DNA of 64,000 nt, from positions 1-64,000 of the forward strand of contig JAOUMR010000002.1 in assembly GCA_029881435.1 (NCBI GenBank). Reading direction: 5' to 3'. Shown here piece by piece: positions 2,071 through 16,950 of this stretch. Every line of letters begins with the position of its first letter. Position 1 is the first letter of the stretch. The translations under genes and the position numbers were made by a program. This stretch comes from Nitrospira sp. Its GTDB lineage: Bacteria > Nitrospirota > Nitrospiria > Nitrospirales > Nitrospiraceae. The notes beneath the pieces are model-generated. The model made no database searches. It was not told the origin of the DNA and saw nothing but the letters and a program-made list of their open reading frames with translations.

Positions 2071-3474
2071 TTAGGAGTCGGTCTTTCGTCGACGATCGAG
2101 CATCCAGCGGGTGATGCCAAGATGCTTGGCGGCAAGGGATTTGTTTCCGTCCGACCGCTGTAACACTTCGCTGATGATGCGGTCCTCAAGGTCGGTTAAG
2201 GATTCACCGAGGCGGAATGAAAGATGGATCTGAGCGGGATCCGTGGTGTCGGTGAACGTCGATTCTAGAGGAGCGGTACCAACGACCGGCTGCACGGGAG
2301 TCTCTCGCACATCAGAAGGGAAATGCACGGCTTCAAGCGTCTCACCGGGGCAGAAAAGCACCGCACGTTCGATCAGATTGCTCAGTTCGCGCACATTGCC
2401 CGGAAAGGTGTATCGGCGTAAGAGGGTATGTGCGCTCTCTCCTATAAGACGAGCCGGTTTCCCAAGTGAGAGAGCTGACCGGGTAAGAAACTGCTGGGCC
2501 AAGGGAATAATGTCTTCGGACCGTTCGCGCAACGGAGGAACGGTCAAGGCGACGACGTTGAGCCGAAAGTACAGATCTTCACGGAACTCGCCTTTCGCCA
2601 CCGCGTCTTTCAGATTGCGGTTCGTGGCGGCCATGAACCGCACATCAACCGGGATGGTGGCCGCCCCCCCTACACGGCGCAAAGTCCGTTCTTCGAGCAC
2701 CCGGAGGAGTTTAGTCTGGAGCGTCAGGGGGAGATCCCCGATCTCGTCGAACAGCACGGTCCCACCGTCGGCCATCTCGATCAAACCCGTCTTTCTGCCT
2801 GCGGCGCCAGTAAACGAACCTTTCTCATGCCCAAAAAGCTCGCTTTCGAACAGCTCATGGGGGATGGACGGGCAGTCGACCTCAATGCAGGGCTTCTGGG
2901 CTCGTGCCCCATTAAAGTGAATGACCCGGCCGGTGTATTGCTTGCCGGTCCCAGTTTCACCCTGCAAGAGGACCGTGATCCGGTCGTTCTTTGCCAATTC
3001 ACGGACCTGCGCGAGGAACGCATGCGTGACGGAGCTCTCGGCGAGCACTCGGCCAATGGCATAGCGTTCGGTGGCTTGTCCGGTTTGCAAGCGAACTTGG
3101 CGCTTGAGTATCAAGAATTCCACGGCACGTCTGAGCGCGTATTGCAGATCCTCCATGTCGATGGATTTGGCGACAAAGTCGAATGCGCCGAGCTTCGTTG
3201 CTTCGACCGCATCCTTCACCGTACCTCTGGCGGTCAACAGAATGACGAGCAAGTTGGGCGCGGTTTGCTTGACACGGGCGAGCACGTCCAAGCCGGACAG
3301 ATTCGGCATTACGAGATCCAGCACGAGAATATCCGGTTCCCAAGACTTCAGGAGGGTCAAACATTCTTCTCCAGACCCAGCCGTCTGTACGGCATATCTT
3401 TGATCCGCGAGGCGCAGTGCGAACGCTTCGCGGACCGATGCTTCGTCTTCCACCAACAGGAGTTGCCACGTCAT
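2071..3474 (-). CDS. sigma-54-dependent response regulator (REC-AAA+-HTH, NtrC family)
   Basis: REC domain (LLVEDEASVREAF...DILVLDLVMPNLSG), Walker A GETGTGK, GSFTGA loop, FDEIGDLPLTLQTKLLRVLEE, C-terminal Fis-like HTH. Confidence 0.93.
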   Translation of the reverse strand: MTWQLLLVEDEASVREAFALRLADQRYAVQTAGSGEECLTLLKSWEPDILVLDLVMPNLSGLDVLARVKQTAPNLLVILLTARGTVKDAVEATKLGAFDFVAKSIDMEDLQYALRRAVEFLILKRQVRLQTGQATERYAIGRVLAESSVTHAFLAQVRELAKNDRITVLLQGETGTGKQYTGRVIHFNGARAQKPCIEVDCPSIPHELFESELFGHEKGSFTGAAGRKTGLIEMADGGTVLFDEIGDLPLTLQTKLLRVLEERTLRRVGGAATIPVDVRFMAATNRNLKDAVAKGEFREDLYFRLNVVALTVPPLRERSEDIIPLAQQFLTRSALSLGKPARLIGESAHTLLRRYTFPGNVRELSNLIERAVLFCPGETLEAVHFPSDVRETPVQPVVGTAPLESTFTDTTDPAQIHLSFRLGESLTDLEDRIISEVLQRSDGNKSLAAKHLGITRWMLDRRRKTDS

Positions 3475-3475
3475 G

Positions 3476-5446
3476 CTACATATCCCGCTTCAGGGGCAGC
3501 CACACCTCGACCATCGCTCCACTTCCCGGAGGGCTACTGATTGCCAGTTGTCCGCCGTGTCGCTCGACGATGTCATGGGTGATCGTCAAGCCGAGACCCA
3601 CGCCCTTGGCCTTCCCATTCGTAAAAAACGGCTCGAAAATTCGCTGCAGGTCTTCGGGCTCAATCCCTTTACCTGTATCAGAAAACGTCACCGAGATGCC
3701 CGGACCTTGTTTTGCCGTGAGTGCCGCCTTGATGGTCAACTCGCCTCCATTCGGCATGGCATCGATCGCATTCATCGAGATATTGAGAAAGGCTTGCTGC
3801 AAGTGGGCACGGGAGCCTTCCAATAAAGGAACCTCCGGGATGCTTTTCTCGACGACAATCCGCTGTTTTCGCAGGTTCGGTCTCAGCAGCGTCAACATGT
3901 CGTCGATGAGAGATGGGAGGTCGCAGGGCTGGAGATCGAATGGGCGGGGCCGCAGTTGGTCTAGATGCGATTCAAGCAGTTCGTCGATGCGGGCTGCTTC
4001 ACGCGCAATGAGGGCGCAGCGGTCTCTGGCAGCGCGGGGCAGTTGTTCTTGTTCCGCGAGATGAGTCGCCAGACTTCCGAGTCCGATCAATGGATTGCGG
4101 ACTTCGTGCAATATGCCTCCGGCCAGTTGTCCCACCAATTTGACTTGTTCGGCGTGTCGCAAGGCTTCCAGCATCTGTTCTCGCTCGCTGAGGTCGGTGA
4201 GTATCGCCAAAAAAGATTGTGTGGTTCCGTCGGGATCCTTGACGGGGCTGACACTCTCCCAGACCAGGACCTCCGAGCCGTCCTTTCGGCGATTGACGAA
4301 ACGATCCACAAACGGCAGTCCAGTGCGGATAGCTTGCCAGAGTCGTTCGTAGAATTCCGGTGGATGTTTGCCGGACTTCAAGATCGACGGCCGCCGGCCA
4401 AGCGCCTCCTCGCGTGTCCAACCGGTCATGCGCTCTAATGCGGGGTTCCATTCCAGAATGCAGCCGTCGGTGTCGGTCAGCATGATTCCATCCTGCGCAG
4501 ACATGAACAAGCGATGGTAGAGATCTCGTTGAGTATCGGCCCGGCGCCGTCGTTCCAGTACCGTCGCTACGGTGTTGGCGACCGCACAGAGGAACTCGAG
4601 TTCTTTGACCGTGAAGTCGCGAACTGACTTGGAATGGGCCGTCATGGCGCCGTAGACCCGATCCTCCACAAGCATCGGGACGCACATGCCCGCGATCGCA
4701 CCATGCTCGGTCAGGAGTTTCGACGGCGTGAACCGGGTTTCCTTTCGCAAGTCTCGGACGACTACCGGGAGCCGTTCGCGGATGGCGTACCCGGCTTGAG
4801 AATGTGTGCCGCCCTCGATCGTGAGTTTGCCGATCAACTCCGGCTCAAGACCGATTCCAGCGATCACAGCCAGGTGATCATCGAATTCCCGTGGGACAAG
4901 AATCTTGCACAGTTCGAGTTCGAGGGCCTCCGCGGTATGCTTAACGGCCTCACTCATCAGCTCTTGTGCCGGGGCATCACTGACGGCAAGTGTGCCGATT
5001 CTGGCCAACACCGATTGAAAACGCGCAATCTGCGACGCCTCGCGCACCAGCTCGGTATGTTCAGTGATATCTCTGAGGACCAAGAGCACGCCAGTCTCAC
5101 CATGGTATGGCACCACGTTGTAACGGCACTCGTAAATAAGGGTTTGGCCCTGACGGTCCACGAGCTGATACGTTTGACTGCCCCTGGAGCCTAAAGTCTC
5201 CTTGTTCCAGGTCATCGCATCGGTAAACAAGAGAGCGCGTAAACTCGTTACATCCGGCCTGGATTGGACAAGTGGGGTGGCCAGCGCTTCAACCAGTTCT
5301 CCGAAGTGTGCGTTCTCAAAAACAAGTATGCCCTTGGCGATGAGGCAGAGTCCGCCTTCCAAACAGTCGCTGACCCAGGCCAGTACCTCGGCAGCGGCTA
5401 CTTCAGGTTTGGCTTGAACTGGAATCTTGGATTGAGAAGAGGGCAT
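3476..5446 (-). CDS. PAS/GAF-domain sensor histidine kinase
   Basis: GAF region (IAGMCVPMLVEDRVYGAM), PAS (DGIMLTDTDGCILEWNPALERMTGWTREEALGR), H-box GGILHEVRNPL, N/G boxes (FSDTGKGIEPEDLQRIFEPFFTNGKAKGVGLGL). Start chosen at MPSSQSKIPV. Confidence 0.9.
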   Translation of the reverse strand: MPSSQSKIPVQAKPEVAAAEVLAWVSDCLEGGLCLIAKGILVFENAHFGELVEALATPLVQSRPDVTSLRALLFTDAMTWNKETLGSRGSQTYQLVDRQGQTLIYECRYNVVPYHGETGVLLVLRDITEHTELVREASQIARFQSVLARIGTLAVSDAPAQELMSEAVKHTAEALELELCKILVPREFDDHLAVIAGIGLEPELIGKLTIEGGTHSQAGYAIRERLPVVVRDLRKETRFTPSKLLTEHGAIAGMCVPMLVEDRVYGAMTAHSKSVRDFTVKELEFLCAVANTVATVLERRRRADTQRDLYHRLFMSAQDGIMLTDTDGCILEWNPALERMTGWTREEALGRRPSILKSGKHPPEFYERLWQAIRTGLPFVDRFVNRRKDGSEVLVWESVSPVKDPDGTTQSFLAILTDLSEREQMLEALRHAEQVKLVGQLAGGILHEVRNPLIGLGSLATHLAEQEQLPRAARDRCALIAREAARIDELLESHLDQLRPRPFDLQPCDLPSLIDDMLTLLRPNLRKQRIVVEKSIPEVPLLEGSRAHLQQAFLNISMNAIDAMPNGGELTIKAALTAKQGPGISVTFSDTGKGIEPEDLQRIFEPFFTNGKAKGVGLGLTITHDIVERHGGQLAISSPPGSGAMVEVWLPLKRDM

Positions 5447-5616
5447 AAGGCGATTCTTCAGGCACGACCTCCGGCTGAGCATGAGTTCATGCCCGCTGGC
5501 GTAGTATACCGAGCCCTGATCGATATCGTCGAGGGAGAGCCGAATCTTTGAGCGCTCAATATGGTCAGACCACCCAAACAATAGCAAAAATCGAGAGAGA
5601 CGTGATAGACAAGGCT

Positions 5617-7092
5617 ATGACCCGGCGCACACTGGAAACGCTTTCCTTCGACAATACCTACGCCCGTCTTCCTCAAGCCTTCCACGCACGAGTGAATCCG
5701 ACTCCGTTCAGCGCCTCGCCTCATCTGGTTCACGCGAATCCCGTCGCCGCCGAATTGATCACGCTTGATCCAGGGGAATGTGCTCGGCCGGAATTCGCGG
5801 CGCTGTTCGGCGGGAGCGTCCTGGCATCTGGGATGGAGCCGCTCGCAATGCTGTATTCCGGCCATCAGTTTGGGGTCTATGTGCCGCAGCTTGGCGATGG
5901 ACGAGCGATTCTCCTCGGCGAAGCGACGAACGACCGAGGCGAACGATGGGATCTGCAGCTCAAAGGTGCTGGGATGACACCGTTCTCGCGCGATGGAGAC
6001 GGTCGAGCAGTGCTGCGCTCAACGATCCGCGAGTATCTCTGCTGCGCCGCGATGCAGGGGCTGGGTATTCCAACCACACAGGCGCTCTGTCTCCTTGGGA
6101 GTGACGACAAGGTGTATCGGGAACAGATCGAAACCGGCGCGATGCTGGTCCGCATGGCACCCTCACATGTTCGCTTCGGTTCCTTCGAAATCTTTTATTA
6201 TCGAAAACAGCATGAGCATCTCAAAACGCTGGCCGACTACGTGATTCAACAGCATTTCACCCATCTGCATGATGATGGAAACAAGTATGCGCGTTTCTTT
6301 ACCGAGGTTGTCGAGCGCACGGCACGGTTGATCGCCCAATGGCAGGCGGTCGGCTGGGCACACGGGGTCATGAACACAGACAATATGTCGATCCTTGGTC
6401 TCACGCTCGACTATGGGCCCTACGGATTTATGGACGACTATGACGCGGGCTTCATTTGCAACCACTCGGACCACAACGGCCGCTATGCCTTCAACCAACA
6501 GCCTTACATCGGGCTCTGGAATTTAAGCTGCTTGGCTCAAGCTTTGTTACCGTTGGCGGAAAAGGATGTGCTGAAGGCGGGCCTTGATGCGTATCAGCCA
6601 CGATTTGAACGGGAATATCTCCAGGGCATGCGCGCGAAATTGGGGTTCACGGAAGAGAAACCAGAAGATGATGAACTCATTCGCGACTTCCTGGGTCTTC
6701 TGCAGGGCAGCCACGCCGATTACGCGATCGTGTTCCGGGAATTGGGTACGTTTTCATCATCCGATGGGGCGACGAACGACAGCCTGCGGGAACACTTTCT
6801 CAATCCCGACCGCTTCGACACGTGGGCTGTGCGGTATCGAGATCGTCTCAGGAGCGAGGATAGCCATGATGGCGAACGGTGTGACCGAATGCATCGGGTG
6901 AATCCGAAGTATGTGCTGCGCAACTATCTGGCTCAAACGGCTATCGAGAAGGCCCAGAGCAAAGACTTTTCCGAAATCGACAGACTCTTCACGTTGCTCC
7001 AAGACCCCTTCACCGACCAGCCGGGTATGGAGGCCTATGCGCTTCCGCCACCGAATTGGGGCAAACATCTGGCTGTGAGTTGTTCTTCATAG
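5617..7092 (+). CDS. selO: protein adenylyltransferase SelO family (YdiU/UPF0061)
   Basis: SFDNTYARLPQAFHARVNPTPFS...MLYSGHQFGVYVPQLGDGRAILLGE...LQLKGAGMTPFSRDGDGRAVLRSTIREYL, SelO pseudokinase signature; start at MTRRTLETL. Confidence 0.93.
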   Translation: MTRRTLETLSFDNTYARLPQAFHARVNPTPFSASPHLVHANPVAAELITLDPGECARPEFAALFGGSVLASGMEPLAMLYSGHQFGVYVPQLGDGRAILLGEATNDRGERWDLQLKGAGMTPFSRDGDGRAVLRSTIREYLCCAAMQGLGIPTTQALCLLGSDDKVYREQIETGAMLVRMAPSHVRFGSFEIFYYRKQHEHLKTLADYVIQQHFTHLHDDGNKYARFFTEVVERTARLIAQWQAVGWAHGVMNTDNMSILGLTLDYGPYGFMDDYDAGFICNHSDHNGRYAFNQQPYIGLWNLSCLAQALLPLAEKDVLKAGLDAYQPRFEREYLQGMRAKLGFTEEKPEDDELIRDFLGLLQGSHADYAIVFRELGTFSSSDGATNDSLREHFLNPDRFDTWAVRYRDRLRSEDSHDGERCDRMHRVNPKYVLRNYLAQTAIEKAQSKDFSEIDRLFTLLQDPFTDQPGMEAYALPPPNWGKHLAVSCSS

Positions 7093-7232
7093 ACTTTATC
7101 ATCCCCGCTCCGATTTCAGCCGTCCATGGCTTGCCGTCACAACTACTTCACAGGCCAAACGGTCTGTTGTAGAGTGTCGCGATTAGACTTGAAAAAACCC
7201 GGATTTAGCGCTCCCCATCACCAAGAAGCACG

Positions 7233-10200
7233 ATGGCGAAGAAGCAGAATGACTCTAAAATTGCCGTAGCTGGTGCCCTCACCATCGTACTGGCGCTCGC
7301 AGGTGTGGTGTTGGTGAAGGAACCGCTGCGAAGTTCTCGCCCGGTCGGCACCGGACTGGAGATGAAGCCGACGATTGAGGAACAAACGGTTCGGGCTCGC
7401 CTGTGGGAGGATCCGGTGGCAGCGGTTCAGCGGGGCATGCGCGAGGCAAGAGCGAATCGCCAGGCCTCTGACCCGCCCCTCCGTCTGTTACAACGGGTCA
7501 GAGCGCTGCGGCAGGCTCTCGCGGACCGGGTCCTACAAGGACAGCATCCCACCGTTCTCTTAGTGACGACCGCCGGAGGGCCCTACGTCGAAAACACGGA
7601 ATCGCGGTTACGTGACCGCTATGCCGTCGGAACGGCTCTCAGTGTCGGCTGCTATGTCCCCGAACGGGAAGGTCAACTGTCTTTTGTCGAGTGGGACCCA
7701 CAGAGTCCTACTCCGGCGCTACCCTATGAATGGTATCGCCTCAGGAGAACAAAAGTCTGCGGGGAGCAAGGGGCGCGTTCGGAAAGCGTTCTGGTGGTCT
7801 GGTTTCCCGACGAGGCCCTGAGTCGCGGATTGCTTGCAAGTCTGACATCATTTTCACAAGCTCTCGTGTGCCAAGAATCGGAGACCAGGAGCGACTGTCT
7901 CTTAACAAACGACACACGGAAACTGATCCGGCTAAATCCCAGGCTGCAACGGGCGGTGACGTTTAAGATCATTGGGCCTCGTGACTCCTCCGCGTTCCGA
8001 GCGCTTTTGACTGAAGTTGGGACCTCCTATGCCGCGCCCCACGAGGGCATCGGGGCCTGGCCGAATGCCGAGGGCTGGATCGACCTGTACTCACCTTGGA
8101 GCAGCGCGATGAAAGGGCTGCTGGCCTATGGGCTGAAGACCGAGTCCGGCACAGGGACAGGTTGTACCACATACGAATCCTGCGAGCAGGAGTTCTCACG
8201 CCGTCTGGCGGATGCCCACATCAGGCTCGCGTACGATATCGGGTCTGATGATCGGTTGTTCGAGTCATTAGTGGAGGAACTGGAACGGCGCCAAGTTCGT
8301 CTGGGATGGGATGCCGTGATCCTGATCGGTGAATGGGACTCGTTCTACGGGAGGGCGCTCCCCATCGAATTTCGGGCGGCGGCGTGCAGGAAAGTCGCGA
8401 CGTTTTCTGAAGGGGACCTCAATCTCATTCAGGTTCCAGTGGCTATCAAGAATTGGTGCTCGACCGTTTCACATGCCCTCGATCTGCAGATTCAACGTCC
8501 CACCGACTACGAGTCTCTGCTCCTTAATGTGTTTCGCTATAGCTATGTGAGCGGTCTTGACGGTGAGGTGTCGGGCGAAGACAAGGGAAAGGTGGTTCGA
8601 TCAGATAAGTTCCAAGATGATCAGCGGGATCGCCCTGAAGGGAGCAGTCAGATTGATTATGTGCGAGCGCTGGTAAACCGTATCCATGAAGAGGGGGAAG
8701 GAGCGCGAGCCATCGGGATCTTCGGGACCGATCCCTACGACTCGTTGCTGATCATCAAAGCGCTTCGTCCCGCTTTTCCGCACGCCATTTTCTTTACCGT
8801 GGATCTCGATGCCCGGCATCTCCATCCGAGCGAGTACAAATGGACACGCAACATGGTGATCGCCTCGCCGTTCGGGTTGCAATTGGAGAGCGGTCTCCAG
8901 CGTGATGTCCCACCCTTCCGCAGCAGCTATCAGACCTCGGTGTACTTTGCCACGTTGCAGGCGGTCGGGCATGTGGTGTGCCAGAGGGAGAATCGATCTG
9001 AGGCAGCGAGCGGTCCTTGTACCGACTCCTATCATGTCTCATTGACATCGGAAAACCGTCTGTACGATGCCGGATCTCATCCGAGGTTGTTCGAGGTGGG
9101 TCGAAGCGGCGCGGTCGACTTGAGCGTGGTGGAAAAGGAAGCGGTGCGCACCGTCCATCCGTTGCGGCCGGACTTAGATTATACGGAGGGCTATGGCCAG
9201 CTGAAACAAGGTACAGGTTTCGACAATGCGGCGGTCGCAGCTTCCGGGGCTGTGGTGTTCGCCCTCGTGGTGATCGTAGCGTGGAGCAACAAACGACTCT
9301 GGTCGGGCATCGAGCGGCGTCCGCGTCTGCTGGGGACCACAGCGCTTGTTCTTGTGACCTCATTCGCCGTGTTCGGCTTGGCAGGCGGCGCCACCGCGTT
9401 ATTCGCCAATCATGATGAAGGGGAGCCATTCTCCTGGACAGCCGGTGTCAGTATCTGGCCAAGCGAACTGCTGCGGCTGCTCGTGGTGGTGCTCGCCGCA
9501 CTGCTTTTCGTGAAAGGTGCGCGAGATCTTCAGAAGAACGGGGACCACATCGGTGAAAAATTCCGCTTCAAGGACACGTCAGGACGCCATCGCTTTTCCG
9601 CCAAAACGTTTTGGACGAATCTTCAACGAGCCTACAATCCAAGTCTGACCAAGACCCCGCCAACCGTCGATCAGGCCTGGGTCTGGTACCACGAAGCCAG
9701 TCGGCTGAGTCAGGGGATGGCGCGCACGACGGTGCTCTTTGTCTTGTACCTGGCGGCAATCTGGGCGATCGGGTATTTCGTTCTTCCCGACGAATATATC
9801 CATCCCTGTCGTGGACTCTTGAGCTGTCGCGTGGACTGGTTCATGACGCTTGCCAGCGTGAGTGTCGTCGTGTTGCTCAATCTGGCGGTCTTTGATGCGG
9901 TGATGCTGTGCCGTCGCTGGATCGGTTGGGTGACAGCGTCGACGGGGGGCTGGTCTGACCAAGTCCAGGACGAGTATCTACGCGAGTATGGGCTGGGTGC
10001 CGCGCAGAAGACCGAGTTCGACAAACTCAAGTATCTCGCGGTCGTCGATCTCATTGCGCAGCGGACGGAAGTGGTCAATCGCTTAATTCGGTATCCCTTT
10101 ATCACCCTTTTGATCATGATTGCCGCGCGCAACGAGTATTTCGACATCTGGAATTATCCTCTCTTACTGCTGTTGTCCTGGTCGGTGAATGTGCTGTTGG

Positions 10201-10457
10201 CGCTGCTCGGCGCGTTTTCCCTGTACCAGTCTGCCAGCCAGGCGAAGGCCGCGATGCTGGCCGGACTCAATCGACAAATCGTGCAGACTTTGGGGATCGG
10301 CAAGGACCATGACGTGCGCGTGAAACAAATCCAGCACGTCATCAGAGAAGTGGAGGACAATGAACAAGGGGCCTTCGTGCCATTCTATCAACAGCCGGTG
10401 GTCGAATCGTCCCTCTATGGTCTCGTGGCGCTGCTGCAGTATCTCTATTTAAGGTAA
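7233..10457 (+). CDS. large membrane protein with N-terminal TM, ~650-residue predicted extracytoplasmic region and several C-terminal hydrophobic segments; unknown function
   Basis: 1074-aa ORF; N-terminal hydrophobic stretch IAVAGALTIVLALAGVVLV; periplasmic-binding-like segments (DAVILIGEWDSFYGRALP, AIGIFGTDPYDSLLIIKALRPAFPHAIFFTVDLD); C-terminal TM segments (LLVVVLAALLFV, TTVLFVLYLAAIWAIGYFV, LASVSVVVLLNLAVF). Confidence 0.85.
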   Translation: MAKKQNDSKIAVAGALTIVLALAGVVLVKEPLRSSRPVGTGLEMKPTIEEQTVRARLWEDPVAAVQRGMREARANRQASDPPLRLLQRVRALRQALADRVLQGQHPTVLLVTTAGGPYVENTESRLRDRYAVGTALSVGCYVPEREGQLSFVEWDPQSPTPALPYEWYRLRRTKVCGEQGARSESVLVVWFPDEALSRGLLASLTSFSQALVCQESETRSDCLLTNDTRKLIRLNPRLQRAVTFKIIGPRDSSAFRALLTEVGTSYAAPHEGIGAWPNAEGWIDLYSPWSSAMKGLLAYGLKTESGTGTGCTTYESCEQEFSRRLADAHIRLAYDIGSDDRLFESLVEELERRQVRLGWDAVILIGEWDSFYGRALPIEFRAAACRKVATFSEGDLNLIQVPVAIKNWCSTVSHALDLQIQRPTDYESLLLNVFRYSYVSGLDGEVSGEDKGKVVRSDKFQDDQRDRPEGSSQIDYVRALVNRIHEEGEGARAIGIFGTDPYDSLLIIKALRPAFPHAIFFTVDLDARHLHPSEYKWTRNMVIASPFGLQLESGLQRDVPPFRSSYQTSVYFATLQAVGHVVCQRENRSEAASGPCTDSYHVSLTSENRLYDAGSHPRLFEVGRSGAVDLSVVEKEAVRTVHPLRPDLDYTEGYGQLKQGTGFDNAAVAASGAVVFALVVIVAWSNKRLWSGIERRPRLLGTTALVLVTSFAVFGLAGGATALFANHDEGEPFSWTAGVSIWPSELLRLLVVVLAALLFVKGARDLQKNGDHIGEKFRFKDTSGRHRFSAKTFWTNLQRAYNPSLTKTPPTVDQAWVWYHEASRLSQGMARTTVLFVLYLAAIWAIGYFVLPDEYIHPCRGLLSCRVDWFMTLASVSVVVLLNLAVFDAVMLCRRWIGWVTASTGGWSDQVQDEYLREYGLGAAQKTEFDKLKYLAVVDLIAQRTEVVNRLIRYPFITLLIMIAARNEYFDIWNYPLLLLLSWSVNVLLALLGAFSLYQSASQAKAAMLAGLNRQIVQTLGIGKDHDVRVKQIQHVIREVEDNEQGAFVPFYQQPVVESSLYGLVALLQYLYLR

Positions 10458-10467
10458 GGGAGTTCGA

Positions 10468-11184
10468 ATGCAAGAACGCCTACTCGGTGGACTAAAGGTA
10501 CGACTCGCCGGCGGCATCGATGGAGTGGGTGGGGGCGACGGCCCAGTGGTCATGCTGCTCCATGGGTTCGGCGCGCCGGGAGACGATCTGGTACCGCTCG
10601 CCGACGTGATGGATGCACCCAGAGAAACCAGATGGCTCTTTCCCGAAGCGCCGCTTTCACTCAATATAGGTTTGGGTGATTCACGCGCCTGGTGGATCAT
10701 CGACTTTGCGCGCATTCAAGCCGATCGAGAAGCAGGCCGCATTCGTGATTTGTCGGTCGAGGTTCCGCAGGGCCTGGCATTGGCACGTGAGCGTTTTCTC
10801 ACGTTTCTCAAGGAACTCCCGCGACAGCTCCCAATCAACTACTCAAAGACGGTCATCGGTGGGTTCTCACAGGGAGCCATGCTCACGTGCGACGCGGTGC
10901 TCCATACCGATTATCCATTCGCCGGGTTGGTTCAGCTGTCTGGGAACTTGTTGGCTCAGGCGGTCTGGAGTCCACTTATGCCGAAGCGCAAAGGGTTGTC
11001 GGTCTTCCAGAGTCACGGCACGGAGGATGACATCCTTCCGCATATCGGGGCAGAGCGTCTTCGTGATGCGTTGAATCAGGCGGGCCTTGCCGTCGACTGG
11101 CACAGCTTCCGAGGCGGACACGAGATTCCTGAACCGGTCTTGCAACGACTGGGTATGTTCATCACACAGAGACTTTCGGCATGA
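10468..11184 (+). CDS. phospholipase/carboxylesterase-like alpha/beta hydrolase
   Basis: 238 aa with VVMLLHGFGAPGDDLVPL and nucleophile elbow GGFSQGAM; late DxH (FRGGHEIPEP). Confidence 0.83.
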   Translation: MQERLLGGLKVRLAGGIDGVGGGDGPVVMLLHGFGAPGDDLVPLADVMDAPRETRWLFPEAPLSLNIGLGDSRAWWIIDFARIQADREAGRIRDLSVEVPQGLALARERFLTFLKELPRQLPINYSKTVIGGFSQGAMLTCDAVLHTDYPFAGLVQLSGNLLAQAVWSPLMPKRKGLSVFQSHGTEDDILPHIGAERLRDALNQAGLAVDWHSFRGGHEIPEPVLQRLGMFITQRLSA

Positions 11185-11933
11185 CCAGGCAGCCCTTCGA
11201 ACTCACGGGCGCAGACGGTAAACGCATCAAGGGGGATCGTGTCGAGGGGACAACTCGGCAGGTGCTCTTCATCACTGGCTTTCTCTCCAAGCGTTGGGGC
11301 AACAAGAGCAAGGCGTTGGCGCACTGGTGCCAGGAGCGAGGGTGGGGATTCTGTTGTTATGACGTGCGCGGGTTCGGTGACTCCGACGGGCAATTCACGG
11401 ACTACACCCTCTCAGATTGGATTGCCGATGCGCGGACAGTCCTGGAATCCATGAAATCGGGTCCGCCCGTTACTATCGTCGGGAATTCGCTCGGCAGTTG
11501 GATCGCTTGGCTGGTTGCGCAGGAGTTCCCCAGCGTCGAAGAACTCATCCTGATTGCACCCGCGTTCAACATGATGGGCGAGCGAGCCAAAACCATCTCC
11601 AAAGATCGTCTTCATGACTGGCATACCGCTGGATGGATGCCCTGGGATGATGACTCGCTACACAAAGACTGGCTGTTGGCATGGAAATGGGTGGAAGAAA
11701 GCGAGCAGTATTGGGCCAAAACCTTTGACATCCGCCGTCACGTGAAGACGGCGATTCTCCATGGATTGGACGACGCCGTCATCCCACCAGAGGGCAGTCG
11801 GCGCTTTGCCAATGAACTGCGCCGTCGTGAACCGAGCTGTCCGCTTGATCTCCGGCTGATTCCCGGCGACCATCGGCTGAGCAGCCCGGAACACCTAGAG
11901 TTGTTTCGACGATTAGTGATGAGGGAAGTCTGA
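11181..11933 (+). CDS. alpha/beta hydrolase
   Basis: 250 aa; ATGA overlap with upstream gene; VLFITGFLSKRWGNKSKALAHWCQERGWGFCCYDVRGFGDSDG, GNSLGSW, GDHRLS. Confidence 0.85.
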   Translation: MTRQPFELTGADGKRIKGDRVEGTTRQVLFITGFLSKRWGNKSKALAHWCQERGWGFCCYDVRGFGDSDGQFTDYTLSDWIADARTVLESMKSGPPVTIVGNSLGSWIAWLVAQEFPSVEELILIAPAFNMMGERAKTISKDRLHDWHTAGWMPWDDDSLHKDWLLAWKWVEESEQYWAKTFDIRRHVKTAILHGLDDAVIPPEGSRRFANELRRREPSCPLDLRLIPGDHRLSSPEHLELFRRLVMREV

Positions 11934-12100
11934 TGCTGGTATTGATTCACAAAGAATGCGGTGGCCCGGCGCTCGACGAGTCGCCAGTTGGGGAGGTCTG
12001 TGCGATTCCAGTGGATCGCTTTCCCTTCTCCTGCTTCACCTGCCTGGAAGAGATCCTCGACGAGTCAGAGGTGCGGTTATCGGAAGAGTTGGGGATTTAG
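11933..12100 (+). CDS. 55-aa Cys-containing small protein (unknown)
   Basis: Manual translation: MLVLIHKECGGPALDESPVGEVCAIPVDRFPFSCFTCLEEILDESEVRLSEELGI*; TGATG overlap with upstream stop. Confidence 0.5.
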   Translation: MLVLIHKECGGPALDESPVGEVCAIPVDRFPFSCFTCLEEILDESEVRLSEELGI

Positions 12101-13425: not shown

Positions 13426-13524
13426 TCACAATTGGAGAGTCACTGCCAGGCTGGATTCGGAGTAGTTGAGAATGTGCTGAATGGCGTCCCGAATGTGGAA
13501 GAGGTAGATGCGATCGTCCTTCAT
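13426..13524 (-). pseudogene. truncated HEPN (DUF86-like) domain remnant, 32 codons
   Basis: Manual translation MKDDRIYLFHIRDAIQHILNYSESSLAVTLQL*; resembles the N-terminus of DUF86/HEPN partners; ATGA overlap with the MNT gene stop. Confidence 0.65.
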
Positions 13525-13802
13525 AGTGGGACGGCTTCGGCCTGGATACGTTCTTTGAGATAGGGGCTGAGACCTTCATCTGTGAGGACATCGACTTTGC
13601 GCTGCAGGACGGATTCCAGTTCCTGAGTCAGTTCAATCAAATCCAATAGGCTGCGTCCGTTGTCCATCTGCACCAAGAGATCAATGTCGCTGGCTGGCCC
13701 TGCTTCCCCTCGGGCAATCGATCCAAAGACACGGACATGGCGCGCGCCATGAAGTGCGGCGAGTCGGAGGATATCGGTTCGCTTGATCTTAAGAACGTCC
13801 AT
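13521..13802 (-). CDS. MNT-type minimal nucleotidyltransferase (antitoxin of HEPN/MNT pair)
   Basis: HVRVFGSIARGEAGPASDIDLLVQM: GSx10DxD nucleotidyltransferase motif. Start at MDVLKIKRTD. Confidence 0.85.
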   Translation of the reverse strand: MDVLKIKRTDILRLAALHGARHVRVFGSIARGEAGPASDIDLLVQMDNGRSLLDLIELTQELESVLQRKVDVLTDEGLSPYLKERIQAEAVPL

Positions 13803-13878
13803 GGTGACCATGGTCTGCAATCTGATGCTTGAGGACCAGGATACTGGTTTGTTCCGATCCTGACAAGCATTCCAGGCG

Positions 13879-15791
13879 TCACGGTGTAAAGCCGGCCTGC
13901 ACGCGATCCAAAGCGGCCAAGAGGGCGGCGCGATCGTTGGCCTTCACGACCGCGAACAGTTCCATGAGCCACGCGCGGTAGGGAGCAAAGACCTGCTCCT
14001 TTTGGACATAGTGTGTTGTTCCATCAAAACTCCAGTCAGCATGAAAACTCTCGGGTTGTCCTGAGACGAATGCCCACAGTTCTTGGAGTTTCTGAGGAAC
14101 GGCGTTGGCCTTCTTGAGTGCCAGAGCAGTGACAATCTCCAGGACACGAAGCCCAACCGCAGAACTGAGATCCAGGTCAGGCTTCTTCAGTAGCTCTCCG
14201 AGACGGCCGTCGGCGTCGGCATAACGCCCCGTTGTCAGGTACGCTTCTACGAAATTGGCTTGAGCAGACAAGTCGGTTGGATACCGCTCTACCCATTGTT
14301 TCGATAATTCAAAAGCCGATGTATACGCAAAGAGCTTCTCATGATAGACGGCGTTTGCCGTCTGATAGGCCTCGCTATAGTCCGGATACAGCGTCAGCAC
14401 ATTTCGATAAGACTCCGCGGCGGATGGCCAGTCTTCAAGTAAAAAGGCGGCTTTTGCCAAGTTGTTATGAGTCTGTGCCCATCCTTCCGGCAAATGCTCG
14501 CGTGTGCGGACCGTGAGGGCGGCGCGAAAGGCGGTCACGGCGTCAGCGAGGAGCTGGGTGCCGGCCTCCCCCCGGTGCGAATTCCTTGGTTCTTCAGCAC
14601 GTTGCCGAGATTGTTCTCGATGGCAGCCCAGGACTCTGGAAACGCCGACTTCGTATAGACCGTCTGTGCCTCCTTGAATCTGTTTGCCGCCTCTGCCAAG
14701 TTTTCCTGAATGGCGGCATCTATCGTTCGGATGCCGATTCCAGAATTCGCTAGGCCTATTTCCCACTGCATGTCGGCCCAGATGGTTGGCAGGTCCTTCT
14801 TCTCCGCATAACTGAGGCCTTCCTTATAGGCTTTAAGAGCCTCGTCGAATTGATAGCTGGCATAATAGGTATCACCGGTTGCCCTGAACTCGGCTACCAC
14901 TTCCTCAGTTAGCTTGATCAGCTGGCGTCTCGCTTCTTCCAACTGGGCCGGTGTGGACTTGTCCGAGGGCGCTTTCACGGAGAGTGCGTCATGACTGCCT
15001 CGTGGTTCGATATCAGATGAGAATCGCGTGAGTGGGCCTGTGATACGGATGATGTCACCTGAGCCGTATGCGAATGAGGGTTCATCTTGACGGTCGATTT
15101 CCGAGTGACCTTTCGAAAGGGATTCAACCTCCTGCCGCTGCTTCTTCAGCAGTTCCACCTTGCTGGTCGCATGTTGCTCGCAGCGTGCAGCAGCCTGTTT
15201 TAAGTCCTTTCGATAGACTGCGGCGAGGCACTGCTTACCCAAGTCGCTCGATTGCTTGTATTGCTTGACGAGGGCGGTAATCTTTGCGACAACCTCTCCC
15301 TCTTGAAGTCCATGTTCGGTCGCATATTCCTTCACCACCCGCTCCGGATCGACCTCTCCTGCCTTCCCGTCCGGGTTGACCTGGCTCTTCAGCTTCTCCG
15401 GCAGGTTCTCCAAGAATCTTTCGAGTTGTGCGGGAGACAGAAATTCCGAAGAGTCCACCGGCGAGAGGAGAATGTCACTTGTGAGGTCTTTCTTTAGCTC
15501 CAGTTTACCACCGACCGGTGTGGCGATCGCCCAGCCCTTGCGCTTGACAAAGAGCACGATGGTTTGCCCGATTTGATAGGCATCGGGCACCAGCACACGA
15601 TAGCCCCCATCCGATTGCGTCATATAGGGATTGCCGACGTTCACGATCCACACCTGGGCGCCAACGGCCAGCTTCTTTGTTCCTGCGTGGTTTTCCAGCA
15701 CTTGGCCCTGTAATCACTGTTCGGCGCGCGCAAGTCCCACCGGATTCATGAGTACTAACAAGAGCACGGCTATGTAGGTGACCCTGCGCAT
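13879..15791 (-). pseudogene. secreted TPR-repeat protein, disrupted by in-frame TGA (15714-15716) and a frameshift near 14568-14573
   Basis: Signal peptide MRRVTYIAVLLLVLMNPVGLARAEQ*LQGQVLENHAGTKKLAVGAQV... continues in frame into ORF 14535-15701; TPR homology moves to ORF 13879-14766 at a C6 (+ strand) run: ...NNLGNVLKNQGIRTGG / GEAGTQLLADAVTAFRAAL... Confidence 0.75.
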
Positions 15792-16747
15792 TACTCACCC
15801 TTCTCCATGGGAAAACGTAAGTACGTGTTCCCTAAGTTGGCGTAGTTCGAGTAGGTCTTGTAGCCATTCTTCTGGGCTGTGAACTTCACCTGAGCCTGCT
15901 TCTGGCTGGTGACGCGAAAACCAAACGATCCATCGGCTTCCGTTTTTTTCTTCAGGTCGAAATCTGGCAGGGAGACGACGACATCTGGCAGGGGTTCACC
16001 GGTTGCTTCGTCCAGCACAGTTCCTGCGAGCTGTTGCTCGAAGGGCACAGGCGGTTGCTCTGAGGGCACAGTTGGAGGAGGTGGCCCACTGCACTTCGCT
16101 GGGAGATCCAAGGTGAGTCCCACAGCGGTGAGAATGGCCACGGCTAGGCTAGCCAGGGTTTGCCATCTCTCGACGAGCGGTTTGGGTTTTTCAGGCACGC
16201 CCGCGGTCGAGGGCTCATTGTGAATATGGATATCGCCTGCGGCCTGGTAGACGTTCCCTTGCACGGTCCATTGCTGTTGGGCGAAGACCATCTTCGCTTG
16301 GGCTAGCACAGCTGTTTCCTCTGTCGCAGTAATCTCGCTCAGCTGGCGGATGACCGGTTCGCGTCTTTGTACATCGGCAAGAGGAGCGGCTTGCAGGGAT
16401 GTGATGAGTCTTGCGACATCTTCCAGGCGATACCCATGAAATGTCTTAAGAGAGGCGGGGAGCGGTGTCTCGTCCAGCAGGCATGGCACGATGGTTTTCT
16501 TCAGCGCGATGGCCGTGCACCATTCAAACTCGACGAAGTGGGAAGCGGCAGAGTTCTTCGACCAGGCGAGGAGAAACACATCCTGATCGGCAATGGCCTC
16601 GCCCAAGACCTTCGGCCACTTCTGCCCGCCATAAATCTTGTCTTGGTCACGCCAGATGGAAATCTCGGGATGGGCGGTGAGCTGGGCTTCCAGCTGCTCG
16701 ATGAGGGGAAGGTCTGCTCGGGAATAGCTCAAGAAGACGGTCGGCAT
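15791..16747 (-). CDS. TIR-domain protein with TM segment and C-terminal carboxypeptidase-regulatory-like domain
   Basis: MPTVFLSYSRADLPLIEQLEAQL...DVFLLAWSKNSAASHFVEFEWCTAIALKK (TIR_2-like); WTVQGNVYQAAGDIHIHN linker; TM LASLAVAILTAVGLTLDL; LAGTVLDEATGEPLPDVVVSL...GSFGFRV (CarboxypepD_reg-like). Confidence 0.83.
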   Translation of the reverse strand: MPTVFLSYSRADLPLIEQLEAQLTAHPEISIWRDQDKIYGGQKWPKVLGEAIADQDVFLLAWSKNSAASHFVEFEWCTAIALKKTIVPCLLDETPLPASLKTFHGYRLEDVARLITSLQAAPLADVQRREPVIRQLSEITATEETAVLAQAKMVFAQQQWTVQGNVYQAAGDIHIHNEPSTAGVPEKPKPLVERWQTLASLAVAILTAVGLTLDLPAKCSGPPPPTVPSEQPPVPFEQQLAGTVLDEATGEPLPDVVVSLPDFDLKKKTEADGSFGFRVTSQKQAQVKFTAQKNGYKTYSNYANLGNTYLRFPMEKGE

Positions 16748-16950
16748 CTGAGGCATCCTAAGTAGGAAAGCGGAGGGTACCATACCGCAAAGCTTACGAC
16801 TGCTCAAGGCAGTAGGCTCACGGAGGATAGGCTGTGTTGGCGTGGGTCGAAAACCTCCTGCGCACTTCCCTCACTTCAGCAGCTGCAATTGGCCTCTCAG
16901 TTTGACAGTCCTCAGGTGAAGCTCTACGCTCAACGCTGGAGGAGACGCCT

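Follow-up and report, generated by a model that had tools for sequence, protein, structure and literature searches.

A family of bacterial receptor-like membrane proteins with a predicted periplasmic Venus flytrap domain, optional in a hydrolase gene cluster of Nitrospira

Background

Several described groups of proteins share part of their architecture with the subject of this study, a 1074-aa receptor-like membrane protein encoded at positions 7233–10457 (+) of a 64,000-nucleotide stretch of a Nitrospira sp. genome (contig JAOUMR010000002.1, positions 1 to 64,000; hereafter the window). The likeness to type-1 solute-binding proteins (SBPs) of ABC importers (LivJ-like; 4q6b, 4evq) lies in the predicted two-lobed extracytoplasmic fold and in a D-x-x-Y-x-R at the start of lobe 2. 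However, the 1074-aa protein is tethered between transmembrane (TM) helices and shows no detectable sequence-profile similarity to these SBPs, and no ABC permease or ATPase was seen directly beside the receptor genes examined. Class C G-protein-coupled receptors (GPCRs; mGluR, CaSR, T1r) likewise have an outside Venus flytrap followed by a multi-helix membrane domain, and their ligand-binding domains are among the best structural matches. In contrast to them, our protein is bacterial, has nine TM helices including an N-terminal anchor, and its membrane domain does not match the GPCR fold; CaSR was the sole top match with a GPCR TM domain, and it aligned as a whole chain with a root-mean-square deviation (rmsd) of 30 Å.

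Among bacterial proteins, 7TMR-DISM and 7TMR-HD have the same layout of an extracytoplasmic sensor with about seven C-terminal TM helices, but to the 1074-aa protein neither a kinase nor a GGDEF or HD output is attached. Their Pfam models were not among the best 25 of 63 families for 52 members of the new family (E ≤ 10), and those listed were at chance level. Insect gustatory and odorant receptors and other 7TMICs resemble it in topology and in how the last seven helices are ordered, including a split last helix, although the scores are weak, there is no sequence similarity, and the 1074-aa protein has an extra periplasmic domain. The two hydrolases encoded next to it are ordinary Abhydrolase_2/Hydrolase_4 serine hydrolases with complete triads, in which only the linkage to selO and to the receptor gene is unusual.

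Our preferred reading, to which we give a probability of about 0.62, is that the protein belongs to an unnamed family of bacterial Venus flytrap receptors of the inner membrane and that, in Nitrospira, its gene is an optional member of a cluster encoding cytosolic hydrolases. A small solute would bind in the cleft of the periplasmic domain and the lobes would close. This movement would pass via the adjoining helix into the C-terminal membrane bundle of eight helices. Long extensions of these helices into the cytosol may carry the output, as ion conduction or as contact with a partner protein.

Topology and predicted fold of the periplasmic domain

Hydropathy averaged over the family, together with the charges of the loops, gave a topology with an N-in anchor (residues 8–27; 7254–7313, +; also a helix in the model), ~630 residues outside the membrane and eight C-terminal TM helices, and the loop charges fit an N-in protein with its large domain outside. 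The original prediction, made from the sequence alone, had proposed one N-terminal TM segment and a very large periplasmic region, both of which hydropathy and the model bear out; its "several" C-terminal TM segments can now be given as eight.

We obtained two AlphaFold models, the first from 19 sequences (mean predicted local distance difference, pLDDT, 67) and the second from 66 homologues (pLDDT 78.1; predicted template modelling score, pTM, 0.78). Foldseek comparison of the second model with the PDB places a type-1 SBP (Venus flytrap) fold at about residues 50–655 (7380–9197, +). The best match was the leucine-binding ABC protein 4q6b (E 2.0e-5, probability 1.00, template modelling (TM-) score by target length 0.59), and 4evq followed at E 2.6e-5. 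All six matches at E ≤ 0.001 (4q6b, 4evq, 5ere, 5x2q, 5x2p, 7m3j) were type-1 SBP or class-C receptor chains, which include an extracellular ligand-binding receptor, fish taste-receptor (T1r) ligand domains and the calcium-sensing receptor (CaSR). Further branched-chain amino-acid and urea SBPs, as well as AmiC, stood lower in the list, and the first, poorer model had already matched the ligand-binding domain of mGluR5 at probability 1.00. The predicted structure contains two Rossmann-like lobes with the SBP strand order, as judged by the 4q6b match. The suggestion that the large domain holds Rossmann or periplasmic-binding-like stretches is therefore borne out by the predicted fold, which also supports the earlier guess of an extracytoplasmic sensor. 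In our own reading of the model, the two stretches quoted for that suggestion probably match the beginning of lobe 2 and its central beta-alpha-beta unit.

In an alignment of 66 sequences, 25 residues were invariant. Twenty-one of these lie in the extracytoplasmic domain, most of them polar or charged, and those in the Venus flytrap domain include E123, R125, R129, E166, E349, R353, D369, Y372, R374, D475, Y476, D500, D503, N540, F562, R563 and E621. Such strict conservation makes a ligand screen of the periplasmic domain practical, and we infer from the modelled fold that a solute would be bound in its cleft.

Several observations weigh against this interpretation and call for caution. Comparison by hhalign with Nitrospira Peripla_BP_6 (PF13458) proteins was not significant (Prob 0.7%, P 0.085), so that SBP homology is a structural inference and the assignment rests on the predicted structure; no Pfam SBP family was matched by any of 52 family members. 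The TM-scores of 0.4–0.6 by target length, with large rmsd, imply that single lobes fit better than the whole domain. The 1074-aa protein contains no known output domain, and its association with the hydrolases may be only positional.

A family missed by current libraries

The original prediction recognised no family for the 1074-aa protein, and the same holds after database comparison. Pfam, NCBIfam and PHROGs gave nothing at E ≤ 1, PADLOC gave nothing at E ≤ 0.1, and no PDB sequence matched it meaningfully; membership in any described family was thus rejected, and the full-length match to a characterised family that could have overturned the prediction did not appear in the family libraries or the PDB sequences. 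Homologues were nevertheless found in 25 of 59 relative genomes, in 64/296 Nitrospirota genomes spread over 11 of 135 genera, in 7/399 Pseudomonadota genomes (a count that includes the query Nitrosospira genome), and in 8 of the 150 genomes of one Pseudomonadota order. A relative is encoded in 199 stretches of GTDB contigs, among them stretches of Nitrospira moscoviensis and Nitrosospira. Spread by plasmids was considered and dropped, as no plasmid match was found. Unbroken homologues at 26–85% identity occur in many genomes and the same gene order and spacing recur, so the reading frames are not due to chance. Single in-frame stops were seen in three homologues (G172:C61:36-3185, G094:C7:113848-116997 and one in L235), which probably reflect errors of assembly or decay of the gene.

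This large family, entirely absent from current family libraries, thus gains a predicted fold and architecture. Its members occur in Nitrosospira as well as in nitrifying Nitrospira, and little is known of how these bacteria sense their surroundings.

The C-terminal membrane domain and insect chemoreceptors

The C-terminal membrane domain (residues 656–1074; 9198–10454, +) comprises eight TM helices by hydropathy and in the model, the last at the C terminus, and its invariant residues among the 66 sequences are S740, W742, R860 and P955. In both Foldseek searches, insect gustatory and odorant receptors were the only membrane folds among the top PDB matches to this region. The first model matched 8z9a (E 4.8e-3, probability 0.99), with about a dozen more of these receptors in the top 20 and a best score by target length of 0.39; the second matched 8zdz (E 0.011, probability 0.99) and reached a target TM-score of 0.43 with 8vc2. 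The 7TMIC layout consists of S1–S6 followed by S7a and S7b (see also PMC9998090). In our protein, the last seven helices follow this order and orientation, with long S4- and S6-like helices, and by topology and model the cytosolic helix 1026–1042 and the final TM helix 1055–1073 correspond to the split TM7 (S7a, S7b).

These matches raise the possibility of a ligand-gated ion channel, in which the C-terminal domain has the insect receptor (7TMIC) fold and the Venus flytrap acts as an external gate controller. Both the exclusive membrane-fold matches and the helix arrangement speak for such a channel, but we consider it unlikely, given that E-values are at or above 0.005 (rounded), TM-scores stay below 0.5 (best 0.43, short of the 0.5 expected of a shared global fold) and rmsd exceeds 10 Å. 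In addition, the 7tm_7 and 7tm_6 Pfam models gave no credible match among 52 members, and the single 7tm_7 match (E 0.083) aligns out of register and was taken as chance. A published structural screen of model-species proteomes reported no Orco-like protein in the prokaryotes covered (PMC9998090), and the literature searched contained no later report of a prokaryotic 7TMIC-type protein. The likeness is therefore suggestive, not proven, and is best treated as a lead that scores below a confident same-fold assignment. Slightly less probable again is the fuller claim that the protein is a Venus-flytrap-gated channel whose membrane domain is the prokaryotic counterpart of the insect fold. If it were true, the 7TMIC fold would extend beyond eukaryotes and be joined to a solute-binding domain; and if the membrane domain does share the fold of insect chemoreceptors, it would become possible to test where that fold originated.

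The hydrolase cluster and its behaviour in Nitrospiraceae

The receptor gene is followed on the same strand by hydrolase 1 (10468–11184; 238 aa, an alpha/beta hydrolase, carboxylesterase/phospholipase-like, PF02230 E 2e-22), hydrolase 2 (11181–11933; 250 aa, an alpha/beta hydrolase, PF12146/PF00561) and a 55-aa microprotein (11933–12100). Ten bases separate the receptor stop from the ATG of hydrolase 1, the two hydrolase genes share an ATGA overlap, and hydrolase 2 and the 55-aa gene share a TGATG overlap; the original prediction had described these four open reading frames (ORFs), their common direction and their tight junctions exactly. It did not include selO (5548–7092, +; protein adenylyltransferase SelO, PF02696 E 6e-145), whose true start may be downstream of the listed TTG. 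This gene, ~140 bp before the receptor gene and in the same orientation, is part of the conserved cluster: across Nitrospira it precedes either the receptor gene or hydrolase 1. Promoter and terminator scans were no better than on shuffled sequence, and the single, weak sigma-70-like match in the gap between selO and the receptor gene (7147–7175, +) belongs to a class of matches no more numerous than in shuffles. In Nitrospira the receptor gene is probably co-transcribed with the two cytosolic serine hydrolases and the microprotein.

Both hydrolases have intact catalytic triads, Ser134-Asp187-His218 in hydrolase 1 (conserved over 71 sequences) and Ser103-Asp198-His231 in hydrolase 2 (over 66). 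By eye, neither shows an N-terminal signal or export sequence, and direct extracytoplasmic ester hydrolysis is for this reason not indicated. The 55-aa protein matched no Pfam or NCBIfam model; its pattern, H6xxC9 ... C23 ... C34xxC37 (HxxC, a middle Cys and CxxC), appears zinc-ribbon-like, HxxC and CxxC being the candidate metal-binding knuckles, with the His conserved in 54/54 sequences and each Cys in 53/54.

A survey of gene neighbourhoods found the receptor gene directly before hydrolase 1, on the same strand, in all 60 distinct Nitrospiraceae loci, which disposes of the concern that homologues might never lie beside these hydrolases. The spacing was 4–20 bp in 47 of the 60, including loci where selO is 0.9–5.5 kb away (a few negative spacings reflect ORFs extended to their furthest possible start). 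This adjacency favours a single pathway in which sensing in the periplasm governs the hydrolysis of esters or lipids in the cytosol, and the constant spacing, kept even where selO has moved away, argues against the alternative that the receptor is only a neighbour of housekeeping-type hydrolases, perhaps under the same promoter, with no functional tie to them.

Other features of the locus point in the opposite direction. In the window's own genus, 22 genomes had both genes, 8 had hydrolase 1 only, 5 had neither and none had the receptor only, although some of these genomes are incomplete. In clusters that lack the receptor gene (L176–L182), selO and hydrolase 1 are adjacent, and the full run of selO, hydrolase 1, hydrolase 2 and zinc-ribbon gene occurs receptor-free; one locus (L184:5998-6628) retains a decayed, stop-ridden relic of the receptor's end with two stops. 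Where the receptor gene is present, divergent variants occupy the same place, about 62–85, 42, 36 and 33% identical to the window's. One of them, variant B, forms one clade in the receptor tree but stands at three separate places in the tree of selO plus hydrolase 1, where forcing it into one clade was rejected (approximately unbiased test, p 2e-109). Between two loci with closely related flanks (L058 and L105), selO and hydrolase 1 DNA is ~80–87% identical, while the receptor gene is mostly 40–60% identical. Taken together, the receptor-less clusters, the relic, the placement of variant B and the flank identities show that the gene is optional and that divergent alleles have taken its place: it is a facultative, exchangeable member of the selO-hydrolase1-hydrolase2-zinc-ribbon cluster.

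That the hydrolases persist without the receptor counts against a single pathway and rules them out as its obligatory partners, and the repeated absence, decay or replacement of the receptor gene while its neighbours stay is what a purely syntenic association would give. Hydrolase 2, moreover, is cut to a short remnant beside some receptors: in the type-B loci L046 and L048, only its last 24–32 residues are left. Tandem remnants of the hydrolase 2 end and the zinc-ribbon gene were also seen at L047:3248-5258, L178:8416-8648 and L181:1650-1860, implying duplication and deletion of this pair.

The same patchy presence of the gene, and the exchange of divergent alleles within conserved flanks, could point to a sensor for conflict or competition that is under diversifying selection, as could a nucleotide cyclase with a TPR-S domain downstream of one distant relative. 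We regard this as very improbable, since none of the four proteins has a PADLOC match, leaving a defence-system reading without support from that source; the periplasmic domain has polar residues that never vary from phylum to phylum, as would suit a conserved ligand, and the neighbours are mostly of housekeeping type, with no plasmid match.

Relatives outside the Nitrospiraceae

Beyond this family the neighbourhood changes. A second subfamily adjoins dnaE/accA or clpB, and in Pseudomonadota the neighbours vary from member to member (gene names read from the sequences); such unrelated surroundings again favour synteny without a functional tie. On the side of a shared pathway, a hydrolase 2 orthologue lies 1.2 kb from the receptor gene in another family (L052), patatin genes lie near distant relatives in L236, in L241 and twice in L193, and a Tle1-like phospholipase gene is near that of L211. 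These lipase sightings are raw counts, from which we claim no enrichment. A strict rule of a lipase neighbour for the whole family fails, as it describes few lineages and most distant loci have no such neighbour.

It follows that the "one functional unit" of the original prediction is not established: the hydrolases and the microprotein stay by selO, with intact active sites, in receptor-less genomes, hydrolase 2 has been lost at some receptor loci, and distant subfamilies do without these hydrolases. Its proposal of extracytoplasmic sensing coupled to ester or lipid hydrolysis fares better in its sensor, which is supported, than in the coupling, which is half right, the hydrolysis itself not being indicated outside the cytoplasm. 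We consider control of the hydrolases by the receptor rather unlikely, and a shared locus with no functional tie a serious possibility that falls somewhat short of even odds.

Two distant loci deserve mention for their gene content. At L193:849-11491, a homologue stands in a co-directional run with two patatins, a metallo-beta-lactamase-like protein and an S1/P1 nuclease. In another Nitrospirota family, a class III nucleotide cyclase fused to TPR-S (L191:9474-10898) is encoded directly downstream of a receptor homologue.

Neighbouring genes in the window

Downstream of the cluster lies a convergent gene for an FAD (flavin adenine dinucleotide) monooxygenase. On the opposite strand beside selO is a two-component pair (2071–5587, −), by eye a PAS/GAF histidine kinase and a sigma-54 response regulator; the kinase gene stays beside selO in some relatives only. 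A short protein encoded at 13521–13820 (−) resembles by sequence a nucleotidyltransferase of the MNT/antitoxin type (GSIARGEAGPASDIDLLV). Further on, 15791–16807 (−) encodes a TIR domain protein that carries a carboxypeptidase-regulatory-like domain at its C terminus (PF13676, PF13715) and gave weak PADLOC matches to the SAVED-TIR and ThsB models.

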